Origin: Elioraea rosea
GTDB lineage: Bacteria > Pseudomonadota > Alphaproteobacteria > Acetobacterales > Acetobacteraceae
DNA: 64,000 bases
Assembly (NCBI RefSeq): GCF_007644105.1
Contig: NZ_VFAC01000008.1
Coordinates: 62,001-126,000 of the forward strand
Direction of reading: 5' to 3'
In this document: positions 18,540 to 58,900 of the stretch, piece after piece
Position numbering within the stretch: position 1 is the first letter of the stretch
How the letters are laid out: each line of letters opens with the position of its first letter
Notes under the pieces: model-generated
Database searches by the model: none
What the model saw: only the letters and a program-made list of their open reading frames with translations
What the model was told of the DNA's origin: nothing
Position numbers and translations under genes: made by a program

Positions 18540-19292
18540 TCAAGCATGGGCGCCGCCTTGCAGCCGCGCCGCAGCGCCATGGCCGAGATAGGCCTCGACG
18601 ACGGCGGGGTCGCGCGCCACCTGCTCCGGCCCGCCGCGCGCGATGATGCGCCCGCCGGCGAGCACATGGATCTCCTCGGCGAGCGCCATCACCGCCTGCA
18701 TGACATGCTCGATCATCAGCACCGTCACGCCGCCGTCGCGGATCGCGCGGATGACGGGGATCATGTCGCGGATCTCGGAGGGGTTGAGGCCGGCGAGCAC
18801 CTCGTCGAGCAGCAGGAGCTGCGGCTCGGTCGCCAATGCCCGGGCGAGCTCGAGCCGCTTGCGGCCCGCGACGGTGAGCGAGGCAGCGGGCAGGTTGAGC
18901 AGCGGCGCAAGGCCCACCCGGTCCGCCACCGCTTCCGCGGCGGCGAGCGCATCGGCCCGGCCTGCGTGGCGGAGATGCGCGCCGACGGCGATGTTCTCGC
19001 GCACTGTGAGGCCGGCGAAGGGCTGCACGATCTGGAAGGTGCGGGCGATGCCGAGCGCGGCCCGGCGATGCGGGGGAAGCCGCGTGATGTCTGCGCCGCG
19101 GAAGCGGATGCTCCCGGCATTCGGCTTCTGGAAGCCAGCGATCGTCGCGAACAGCGTGGTCTTGCCGGCGCCGTTCGGGCCGATGAGCCCGACGATGCAC
19201 CCCTCCGGCACGGGCACCGACGCGTCATTCACGGCCACGAGCCCGCCGAAGCGGACGGTGATGCCCTCGGCTTCCGCCAGTAGCTCAGCCAC
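18540..19292 (-). CDS. livG: branched-chain-amino-acid-type ABC transporter ATP-binding protein LivG
   Basis: A 250-residue ABC ATPase with Walker A GPNGAGKTTLF, Walker B LLLLDEVLAGL and the LivG-type segment GIARTFQIVQPF. The signature region reads LTVAGRKRLELARAL, a degenerate LSGGQ of the kind found in part of the LivG family. It overlaps livM by 8 bases and is followed by livF, so the two ATPases probably form a heterodimer. Confidence 0.92.
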   Translation of the reverse strand: MAELLAEAEGITVRFGGLVAVNDASVPVPEGCIVGLIGPNGAGKTTLFATIAGFQKPNAGSIRFRGADITRLPPHRRAALGIARTFQIVQPFAGLTVRENIAVGAHLRHAGRADALAAAEAVADRVGLAPLLNLPAASLTVAGRKRLELARALATEPQLLLLDEVLAGLNPSEIRDMIPVIRAIRDGGVTVLMIEHVMQAVMALAEEIHVLAGGRIIARGGPEQVARDPAVVEAYLGHGAAARLQGGAHA

Positions 19293-56168: not shown

Positions 56169-56214
56169 GCCCGACGTGCCATTGCTTGCCCGTTCGGGCA
56201 CGGGGGAGAACGAC

Positions 56215-57204
56215 GTGAAGGCGATGGTGATCGATCGGTTCGGCGGGCCCGAGCTGTTCCGCGAAGCGACGCTGCCCGACCCGGTGGCAGGCCCTGGCGA
56301 AGTGCTGGTCGCGATCGAGGCGGCGAGCGTGAACCCGGTCGACTGGAAGATCCGCTCGCGGGGCCCCGGTATCGCACCCGCGCTTCCCGCCGTGCTCGGC
56401 TGCGACTTCGCGGGCCGTGTCACCGAGCTCGGCGACGGCGTGCATGGCTTCGCGGTCGGCGATCGCGTGTTCGGCTGCGCCGGCGGGGTGAAGGGCATGC
56501 CCGGAACCTACGCGACGATGATCGCGGCCGATGCGCGGCTGATCGCCAAGGCGCCCGCGACCCTCGATGCGCACGCGGCCGCCGCCCTGCCACTCGTGAC
56601 CATCACCGCCTGGGAAGGGCTGTTCGACCGCGCGCGCATCCATGAGGGCGCGACGGTTCTCGTCCATGGCGGCACAGGCGGGGTCGGGCATGTGGCGGTG
56701 CAGCTTGCGGCCGCCGCCGGAGCGAAGGTGACCGCGACCGTCTCGAGCCCCGAGAAGGCCACGCTCGCGCGCTCCCTCGGCGCGGCGGAGACGATCGACT
56801 ACCGGAACGAGACGGTCGAGGCCTATGTCGCGCGGCTGACCGGCGGGCGCGGCTTCGACGTGGTGTTCGACGCGACGGGCGGCTCGGACATCGCCACGAG
56901 CTTCGCAGCGGCCCGCACCAACGGCCAGGTCGTGACGATCGTGTCGCAGTACACAGCCGACCTGACACTGATGCACACGAAGGGGCTGTCGCTGCACGTC
57001 GTGTTCATGCTTCTGCCGATGCTGACCGGCGCGGGCCGCGAGAGGCAAGGCGAGATCCTTTCCGCCGCCGCCCGCCTCGCCGAGGAAGGCAAGCTCCGCC
57101 CCGTTCTGGACAAGACCCGGTTCGGTCTCGCCGACGTGGCCGCCGCCCACACCCGCCTCGAGAGCGGCAAGGCCATCGGCAAGGTCGTCATCGACATCGC
57201 CTGA
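56215..57204 (+). CDS. zinc-independent alcohol dehydrogenase / quinone oxidoreductase (MDR family)
   Basis: A 329-residue medium-chain dehydrogenase of the quinone oxidoreductase branch. The N-terminus VKAMVIDRFGGPELF, the GroES-like core and the NADPH motif VHGGTGGVGHVAVQLA fit the family; zinc-ligand cysteines are absent. The GTG at 56215 was chosen because GGGGGAG lies 7 bases upstream and it gives the family N-terminus. It is probably controlled by the preceding XRE-cupin regulator. Confidence 0.9.
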   Translation: MKAMVIDRFGGPELFREATLPDPVAGPGEVLVAIEAASVNPVDWKIRSRGPGIAPALPAVLGCDFAGRVTELGDGVHGFAVGDRVFGCAGGVKGMPGTYATMIAADARLIAKAPATLDAHAAAALPLVTITAWEGLFDRARIHEGATVLVHGGTGGVGHVAVQLAAAAGAKVTATVSSPEKATLARSLGAAETIDYRNETVEAYVARLTGGRGFDVVFDATGGSDIATSFAAARTNGQVVTIVSQYTADLTLMHTKGLSLHVVFMLLPMLTGAGRERQGEILSAAARLAEEGKLRPVLDKTRFGLADVAAAHTRLESGKAIGKVVIDIA

Positions 57205-57223: not shown

Positions 57224-57369
57224 GAGAGACGGCCCGAGACGTCGCTGCCGTGAGTCGGTTGGCGCGGTTGCCGAGAATCGGAGCGGAGTGGCCTCATGGC
57301 CGTGAGCACCGGAAGCGCAGGCAACCGATGCCAGACGGCCACGGCAGTAGACGTATCGGGCCGTCTCTC
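57224..57369. repeat. 146-bp imperfect inverted-repeat element at the 3' end of dnaA
   Basis: GAGAGACGGCCCGA at 57224-57237 and its exact reverse complement TCGGGCCGTCTCTC at 57356-57369 bound the element. The similarity continues inward: (G/T)ACGTC, a short mismatch, then CTGCCGTG, and later TCGGTTG, are also shared in inverted orientation. The centre has a near-palindromic GGCCTCATGGCC. It overlaps the dnaA stop codon by two bases. A MITE-like or IS-derived remnant is likely; no clear target duplication was found. A structured 3' RNA is the alternative. Confidence 0.65.
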
Positions 57370-58900
57370 AGCTTTCGAGCATGCGGCGGAGAAGCTCCAC
57401 ATCCTCGGCGAAGGCGGCGTCGCGCTGCATCAGGTCGGCGATGCGCGAGCAGGCATGCATCACCGTCGTGTGGTCGCGGTTGCCGAACTTCCGGCCGATC
57501 TCGGGAAGCGAGCGCGAGGTGAGCTGCTTGGCGAGGTACATCGCCACCTGGCGGGGCCGCGCCACAGCACGGGCACGGCGGGCGGAGGACATGTCGGTGA
57601 GGCGGATGTTGTAGTGCTCCGCGACGCGCTTCTGGATCTCCTCGATCGTCACGCGCCGGTCCTGCGCGCGGAGCACGTCGTGCAGCACCTCCTGGGTGCT
57701 CTCGAGCGTGATCGGGCGGCCGACGAGCTGGCCGTGCGCGACGACGCGGTTCAGCGCGCCCTCGAGCTCGCGCACGTTCGTCGTGATCTTGTGGGCGAGG
57801 AACTCCATCACCTTCTGCGGCACGATCATGCCCGCGAGCGCGGCCTTGGCCTGCAGGATGCCGATGCGCAGCTCGTAGGTGGTGGCGTGGATGTCGGCCA
57901 CCATGCCGCAGCCGAGGCGTGTGCGCAGCCGTGCGTCGAGCTCGGAGAGGTCGGACGGCGACTTGTCCGCCGAGACGACGATCTGCTTGCCCGCATCCAC
58001 GAGCGCGTTGAAGGTGTGGAAGAACTCCTCCTGCGTGTTGTCCTTGCCGATGAGGAACTGCAGGTCGTCGACCATCAGCACGTCGACGGAGCGGAGCTGC
58101 TCCTTGAACTCGACGGTGTTCTGGCTGCGGATCGCGGAGATGAACCGGTACATGAACCGCTCGGCCGACATGTAGGCGACGACGCGCTTCGGGCTGCGCT
58201 CGCGGATCGCCCAGGCGATCGCGTGCATGAGGTGCGTCTTGCCCAGGCCGACGCCGCCATAGAGGAAAAGCGGGTTGAAGCCCGGCTGCGCGCGGTCGCT
58301 CTCTGCCACGCGGCGGGCGCAGGCGTAGGCGAACTCGTTCGGCTTGCCGACGACGAATGTCGCGAACGTGAAGCGCGGATCGACGGTACCGGCGAATTCC
58401 GTGCGCACGAGGTCGGTGCGCGCGTCGCTGCGCGCCTCGAGAAGCGGCGAGGCAGGATCGTGACCGTTCGCGGCAGGCGCGACCGGCGCCGCGGCGGGCG
58501 TGGCGGACAGCGCGGAGCTTGCGGCGGCGGGGCTCACCTCGCCGGCGAGCCCTTCGGGCATCGAAGCACCGATGCGCAGAGCGACGCGCCGGATGCGCGG
58601 GTTCTCCGCGCCCCACAGGGAGCGGATGCGGTCGCCGTAGTGGCTCCTTACCCAATCGCGCAGGAAGCGCGTCGGCAGGATGATGGTGACCTCGTCCTCG
58701 TCGACCTCGGAGAGCGTCATCTGCTTGAGCCAGGTGCGGTATTCGACCTCGCCGACTTCTTCGCGAAGGCGGCCACGCACGCGTGCCCACTGGGCTCCCA
58801 GCTCTCCGTCCAAACGACGCACCAGCCTCAGCCCCGCCTCTCCTGAGCGCCCCCGATCGGCTTTGCGGCCGTCAGCCGCGCATCGCACGCGGGCGGCCAT
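57368..58900 (-). CDS. dnaA: chromosomal replication initiator protein DnaA
   Basis: A 510-residue initiator. Domain I (about 35-110), a proline/alanine linker and the AAA+ domain with Walker A GGVGLGKT at 215-222 and Walker B VLMVDDLQF are present. Domain IV carries the DnaA-box recognition signature RAVARPRQVAMYLAKQLT and NRDHTTVMHA. The ATG at 58900 has GGAGG only 2 bases upstream, so a GTG start about 27 codons in is possible; domain I begins after that point. It is preceded by rpsT on the same strand. Confidence 0.96.
   Translation of the reverse strand: MAARVRCAADGRKADRGRSGEAGLRLVRRLDGELGAQWARVRGRLREEVGEVEYRTWLKQMTLSEVDEDEVTIILPTRFLRDWVRSHYGDRIRSLWGAENPRIRRVALRIGASMPEGLAGEVSPAAASSALSATPAAAPVAPAANGHDPASPLLEARSDARTDLVRTEFAGTVDPRFTFATFVVGKPNEFAYACARRVAESDRAQPGFNPLFLYGGVGLGKTHLMHAIAWAIRERSPKRVVAYMSAERFMYRFISAIRSQNTVEFKEQLRSVDVLMVDDLQFLIGKDNTQEEFFHTFNALVDAGKQIVVSADKSPSDLSELDARLRTRLGCGMVADIHATTYELRIGILQAKAALAGMIVPQKVMEFLAHKITTNVRELEGALNRVVAHGQLVGRPITLESTQEVLHDVLRAQDRRVTIEEIQKRVAEHYNIRLTDMSSARRARAVARPRQVAMYLAKQLTSRSLPEIGRKFGNRDHTTVMHACSRIADLMQRDAAFAEDVELLRRMLES

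Follow-up and report, generated by a model that had tools for sequence, protein, structure and literature searches.

A probable IS5-type miniature element with a covarying core behind dnaA of Elioraea rosea and behind gene stops in other Alphaproteobacteria

Introduction

The systems closest to the element reported here are the REP/RAYT repeats, the CIR and RIME repeats, the Br-REP sequences of Bradyrhizobium and the MITEs of the IS5 family. REP/RAYT repeats of the GTAG and CGTC families form hairpins near gene 3' ends and are able to supply a stop codon; REPs are reported to lie close to ORF 3' ends, with GTAG termini that often provide the TAG stop (Di Nocera 2013, PMC3733652). The length given for REPs is 20-40 bp. 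CIR (CcrM-associated) repeats have GANTC and RNA-like folds, measure about 110 bp, and consist of two arms joined by a linker with no terminal inverted repeat (Delihas 2007, PMC2229807). Br-REP1 and Br-REP2 are likewise 3'-UTR repeats, one of them between convergent genes, and complementary sRNAs have been suggested for them; by eye, the consensus sequences printed there are other palindromes than our element (PMC5082802).

MITEs of the IS5 family are short and are marked by GAG-starting inverted ends and a 3-bp TNA duplication. These traits recur in the family described here, in which no coding frame of its own was recognised and which differs from such MITEs in its covarying one-strand core, its variable outer ends and its strong orientation bias at stops. 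What lies between the ends of a MITE is usually regarded as mere filler. In this family the interior is the best-conserved part, with one-strand covariation in several alphaproteobacterial groups, while the ends change. Exact strings of this core were found in none of the open-licence papers searched, and the related repeats among the matches listed there did not include this family.

The copy from which the analysis started is a 146-bp element at positions 57224-57369 of the window, the whole 64,000-nt stretch of DNA that was analysed, and is oriented (+) by the strand with the conserved structure. The original prediction was of a MITE or IS remnant that may have altered the end of dnaA; the results presented below uphold its MITE-like nature and speak against any alteration of dnaA.

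Results and Discussion

The element behind dnaA

Exact 14-bp terminal inverted repeats were confirmed at 57224-57237 and 57356-57369, with 19/20 positions agreeing over 20 bp. The left repeat (57224-57243, + strand) and the right repeat (57350-57369, + strand), which adjoins the dnaA stop, form the 5' and 3' sides of an outer stem. The inverted similarity reported further inward was also recovered: CTGCCGTG is matched by CACGGCAG, and for TCGGTTG the reverse complement CAACCGA is present inward. In the 64-kb window, a single further exact 14-bp inverted pair no more than 200 bp apart was found (18929-19107); it lies inside long reading frames and, after inspection, was set aside.

By predicted folding, the whole element forms one long hairpin on both strands, at -103.1 kcal/mol on the + strand (z = -10.8; equalled by none of 200 shuffles) and -89 kcal/mol on the - strand (z -8.8). 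A conserved 110-nt core at 57239-57348 (+) matches the covariance model R1 with 107.7 bits, a score to be read with the window copy being one of the 48 R1 training sequences. The core contains an inner, covarying long stem (57244-57272 paired with 57320-57348, +), a conserved internal loop with GAGAA on its 5' side (57273-57277, +) and GAAGCGCA on its 3' side (57312-57319, +), and a terminal hairpin, GTGGCC-TCAT-GGCCGT (57288-57303, +). The ends of the copy are GAG...CTC, and the GTAG that it contains is internal, not terminal. Two GANTC sites are present, at 57252-57256 and 57275-57279; the first (+) reads GAGTC, a CcrM site found in many members at the same position. Across window positions 1-64000, GANTC was seen 37 times against 302 expected by shuffles, and two of the 37 fall within the 146-bp element.

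The reported overlap with dnaA was reproduced, as the element ends on the first two bases (+ strand) of TCA at 57368-57370, the stop of a 510-aa dnaA with DnaA domains in Pfam (57368-58900, - strand). On the other side, a convergent 342-aa ORF with zinc-binding dehydrogenase domains (56176-57204, +) ends 19 bp before the element. The end of dnaA was not altered by the element: in G002, a genome of the same genus without the element at this site, DnaA terminates at the same point with ...LLRRMLES*. The C-terminus LLRRMLES is common to the window genome (G000), G001 and G002, with the same or similar residues in other close relatives; the end of DnaA was legible in 26 of 30 fetched loci, one of these being a second match within one genome. 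By eye, the element follows the dnaA stop in G000 and G001 and in no other of the 26 legible loci, and a short hairpin without the core lies behind the stop in G003. The dnaA copy is old: of three genomes examined in the genus, two have it. A role as rho-independent terminator was rejected, because no U-tract pattern occurs at or near the window copy; T runs after the stem (gene sense) were seen by eye at a few other copies. As a guess, the long hairpin between the convergent genes could act as a passive 3'-end barrier.

Distribution of the family

The search for further copies, which the original prediction had called for, revealed a dispersed family with 12 copies in G000 by model R1, and the region is not ordinary conserved intergenic sequence. 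At E 1e-5 or better, 14 places in G000 match, including the self-inverted match and a split copy. The element is carried (R1) by 23 of 120 genomes sampled from the Acetobacteraceae, the family of the window, and by 12 of 192 genomes drawn across the class under stricter filters than the family draw, G000 being included in both counts. Its distribution is patchy. In eight genomes or records picked as known carriers, with at most 150 candidates scored in each, R1 counted at least 25, 20, 36, 50, 78, 33, 47 and 3 copies. The record with at least 33 (L172, NZ_VCCH02000140.1) is titled Mycobacterium sp. KBS0706; its copies are very like those of Inquilinus, and the name may be wrong.

A degenerate core pattern was found in at least 118 stretches of named genomes, several of which, from other phyla, look like chance; hosts among the 80 matches listed include Mesorhizobium, Phyllobacterium, Bosea, Inquilinus, Gluconacetobacter, Sphingomonadales, Pleomorphomonas and others. 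Viral contigs contain the pattern in 25 stretches, of which one or more look like chance. A search with a single Mesorhizobium element gave matches at E 1 or better in 38 of 72,556 plasmid records; several of these span just 25-29 bases, and many lie on replicons of very large size. None of 50,697 phage records matched at E 0.1. Tandem copies with a period of mostly about 166 bp were seen at L147, L231, L109 and L133, in Gluconacetobacter and one viral contig.

Evidence for transposition

Target duplications were examined in 91 elements with GAG...CTC ends, drawn from 273 distinct ones. Equal flanking triplets were present in 30 of the 91, compared with a mean of 10.3 and a maximum of 19 in 5000 shuffles; these were TCA in 22 cases, TAA in three, TGA in two and other triplets in three, so that 27 are TNA. 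Where both flanks are TNA they are equal in 27/31 (shuffled mean 18.2; 0/5000 as high). A test without the GAG...CTC condition gave 18/104, which is not significant against a shuffled mean of 13.1 and maximum of 19. The window copy itself has no target duplication, its flanks being CGA or GAC on the left and TCA or AGC on the right, depending on the placement of the ends.

Empty sites were sought at nine gene ends beside G000 copies; G001 has a counterpart for six of them, and G002 for four of the same six. By eye, the element is missing in G001 at five of the six (L037, L041, L042, L044, L045) and present at L043, and it is missing in G002 at all four (L041, L043, L044, L045). At L037, L041 and L042, TCA stands on both sides of the element in G000, and G001 has a single stop triplet (TTA, CTA and CTA, respectively); the match of L037 to G001 is the weakest, with 77% over about 130 bases. 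No duplication is seen in G000 at L044 and L045, though the G001 site is without the element.

The original prediction also pointed to a full insertion sequence with these ends. Similar ends do occur in other carriers, and no intact partner was seen in G000, where a search with the L512 transposase gave only a fragment with an internal stop, besides two weak DDE matches. In G065, L512/L526 is a 904-bp IS5-family insertion sequence with GAGNCCTTTTGGAAA ends and a TTA duplication, which matches NF033580 (243 bits), DUF4096 and DDE_Tnp_1. L543 of G003 matches the same families (NF033580 with 114 and 154 bits on two overlapping frames) and is 864 bp long, with GAGCGCCTTTCAAAA ends and a TAA duplication. 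The match between the ends of the element and those of the insertion sequences extends over about 15 bp. Relatives of the L512 transposase were found in 10 of 14 carrier genomes searched, and none in G001, G061, G063 and G064. Additionally, GGG-starting ends with TA duplications were found in L509/L554 of G095 (family tested), in L517/L528 of G095 (DUF4096 match only) and, less clearly, in L519 of G065; by eye, such GGG-ended insertion sequences resemble the second end type of the elements, seen in Sphingomonadales and some phages.

The dispersed copies, the terminal inverted repeats, the target duplications, the sister sites without the element and the similar IS5-family ends make the element MITE-like, and we regard its origin as a miniature, non-autonomous transposable element of IS5 type as probable and well supported. 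The TNA target presumably places it with the IS1031-like group of the IS5 family. An IS5-type transposase would then move the element in trans. Since the stop triplets TGA and TAA are themselves TNA targets, insertion there would duplicate the stop and leave the gene intact.

The folded core and its strand

Conservation of the fold was assessed in an alignment of 48 sequences, hand-chosen from the type without an extra hairpin, for which 37 consensus pairs were predicted, 20 of them with double changes. Paired cells made up 96.0% against 83.4 in shuffled alignments, double-change cells numbered 217 against 58.2, and the covariation was 0.382 against 0.158 (0.036-0.074 for slid versions), in a test that favours the structure because it was derived from the same 48 sequences. 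The core of about 110 nt shows strong covariation, and its structure is maintained. The loops GAGAA, GTGA and GAAGCGCA are nearly invariant. A second subtype has an extra hairpin, and core-less forms were recognised by eye in phages (L404, L426, L418, L325) and at the G003 dnaA. Around the same core the outer ends vary, being of the GAG type or of a type like GGGTGTGTTGAGATTC.

The two kinds of mispair that distinguish the strands were then compared in the outer arms of 144 elements, the remainder of 200 hits after removal of duplicates, N-containing stretches and poorly pairing arms. G-T mispairs outnumbered A-C mispairs by 463 to 108, with the G-T side in excess in 125 elements and the other in 7; the same arms had 1018 gap positions and 666 mismatches of other kinds. 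Later loci, with 39 elements, gave counts of 162 and 28 (38 elements versus 0), and within the core, outside five pairs where G-U is commonest, they were 68 and 6; many of these cells reflect common descent and do not stand for separate events. The excess of G-T over A-C shows that the pairing is kept on one strand, the + strand of the window, antisense to the abutting gene.

Position and orientation relative to stop codons

Of 200 core hits, which include some chance ones, 123 have the stop of their longest convergent reading frame at +55 to +80 relative to the anchor. By a symmetric test, a gene stop abuts the right end in 81 of 120 elements, the left end in 15 and both in 8, with 0-4 (right) and 2-10 (left) in displaced windows used as control. 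In 66 of 94 gene-called loci, the gene on the right is convergent and has its stop at the edge. At those 66, the gene on the left has the same direction as its right-hand counterpart in 44 cases and is convergent in the remaining 22; the folded strand is thus more often antisense to both neighbours. A weaker bias was observed in one Phyllobacterium genome, where 12/37 copies abut a stop on the right and 3/37 on the left (at least 78 copies found, 40 fetched and 37 anchored, with a gene filter made for GC-rich genomes). Cases in reverse orientation exist, such as L136 and L185. Among copies with a TNA duplication, a stop abuts the right end in 20/25 and the left in 2/25, and for the other GAG...CTC copies these values are 42/58 and 6/58. 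The bias is thus strong even where the duplications are intact, and an insertion bias may contribute to it.

A one-strand structure and an orientation bias are more than a plain MITE needs, and they count against the MITE explanation. The most economical account would combine the choice of TNA targets with the loss of harmful insertions, which would leave stop codons as seats, and a folded strand that is harmful or inactive in one orientation. The folded strand may work as folded RNA or as single-stranded DNA, and copies with the core in mRNA sense may be lost or rarely made. A further step, which we put forward only tentatively, is that the core acts as a folded module, of RNA or of single-stranded DNA, which has a function, has travelled with two or more kinds of IS5-type ends and actively sets the place and orientation that are kept, directly behind stops with the folded strand antisense to the gene. 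If true, the element would not be passive MITE filler but a mobile 3'-end module that reads orientation and serves the host or itself. The family is a clean data set for asking why small elements gather exactly at stops in one orientation, and the covariance model R1 offers a means of annotating them.

Alternative explanations

A non-mobile, inherited 3'-UTR element (a terminator, mRNA stabiliser or RNA regulator) under selection behind certain genes is an unlikely explanation. In its favour are the strong covariation and the seat behind stops, mostly in one orientation; the element is also common to G000 and G001 behind dnaA and behind the L043 gene, and some copies follow phage structural genes, one a capsid gene by Pfam. 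The patchy presence, the target duplications and the same-genus sites without the element argue against it, as do the missing U-tract terminator pattern at the window copy and the pairing kept antisense to the gene. A 3'-UTR function may be a secondary role of the element, not its origin.

It is similarly improbable that the element is a known CIR or RIME repeat under another description. Like those, it is multicopy, intergenic and alphaproteobacterial, and GANTC occurs in 74 of 144 elements, at 4.0 per kb inside against 1.3 in the flanks. GANTC was nevertheless rejected as the defining feature of the family, being present in just these 74. The element is a single stem closed by its ends and not the two arms described for CIR; it is by this description, rather than by sequence comparison, that the element is set apart from CIR. 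In Rfam 15, no family exceeded its curated threshold in the 26 stretches or loci tested, and the highest-scoring overlapping match, which reached 34.3 bits where the threshold is 40, lay only partly over the element of L070.

Movement of a REP-like repeat as single-stranded DNA by a Y1 (RAYT) transposase would account for the one-strand structure and the seat at stop codons, and the window copy does contain a GTAG. Y1_Tnp matches (cut-off 23) occurred in 13 of the 120 family genomes, apparently the same draw as for the element, and in just four of the 23 carriers (G021, G033, G035 and G081, at 25-36 bits); the 19 carriers without a match include the copy-rich G000, G001, G003, G006, G009, G075, G076, G110 and G148. 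To our knowledge, a 3-bp target duplication is not expected of these enzymes. We consider this explanation very improbable, because Y1 transposases do not track the element across genomes, and the element, unlike REP/RAYT repeats, has a target duplication and at 146 bp is several times longer than the REP unit, which measures 20-40 bp and has a GTAG or CGTC end.

Phage loci and other repeats at the same stop

The space behind one phage gene was compared across 58 loci; this gene has no Pfam family and is called scaffold-like from its place only. In 57 printable loci, the spacer behind its stop measures 23-53 nt in 29. The 28 longer spacers comprise 10 with the element and its core (one cut off), three with the core-less form and 15 with other sequence, much of it made up of palindromic repeats that are unrelated to the element and lie at or near the same stop. 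It thus seems that this phage stop attracts small repeats in general. Other repeats, mostly palindromic, take the place that the element has in sister phages at L391, L392, L398, L405, L425, L424, L428 and L400, and further ones at L412, L414-L417, L419 and L423.

The outer arms differ between loci yet still pair. The idea that they are copies of the target was rejected as a general rule, GAG-type arms being common to different genomes. In the phage copy at L241 (9441-9600), the outer stem appears by eye to enter the last codons of a capsid-like gene, and one arm would therefore be an inverted near-copy of coding sequence. At L438 and L393, the terminal loop of the element holds a different repeat nested within it.
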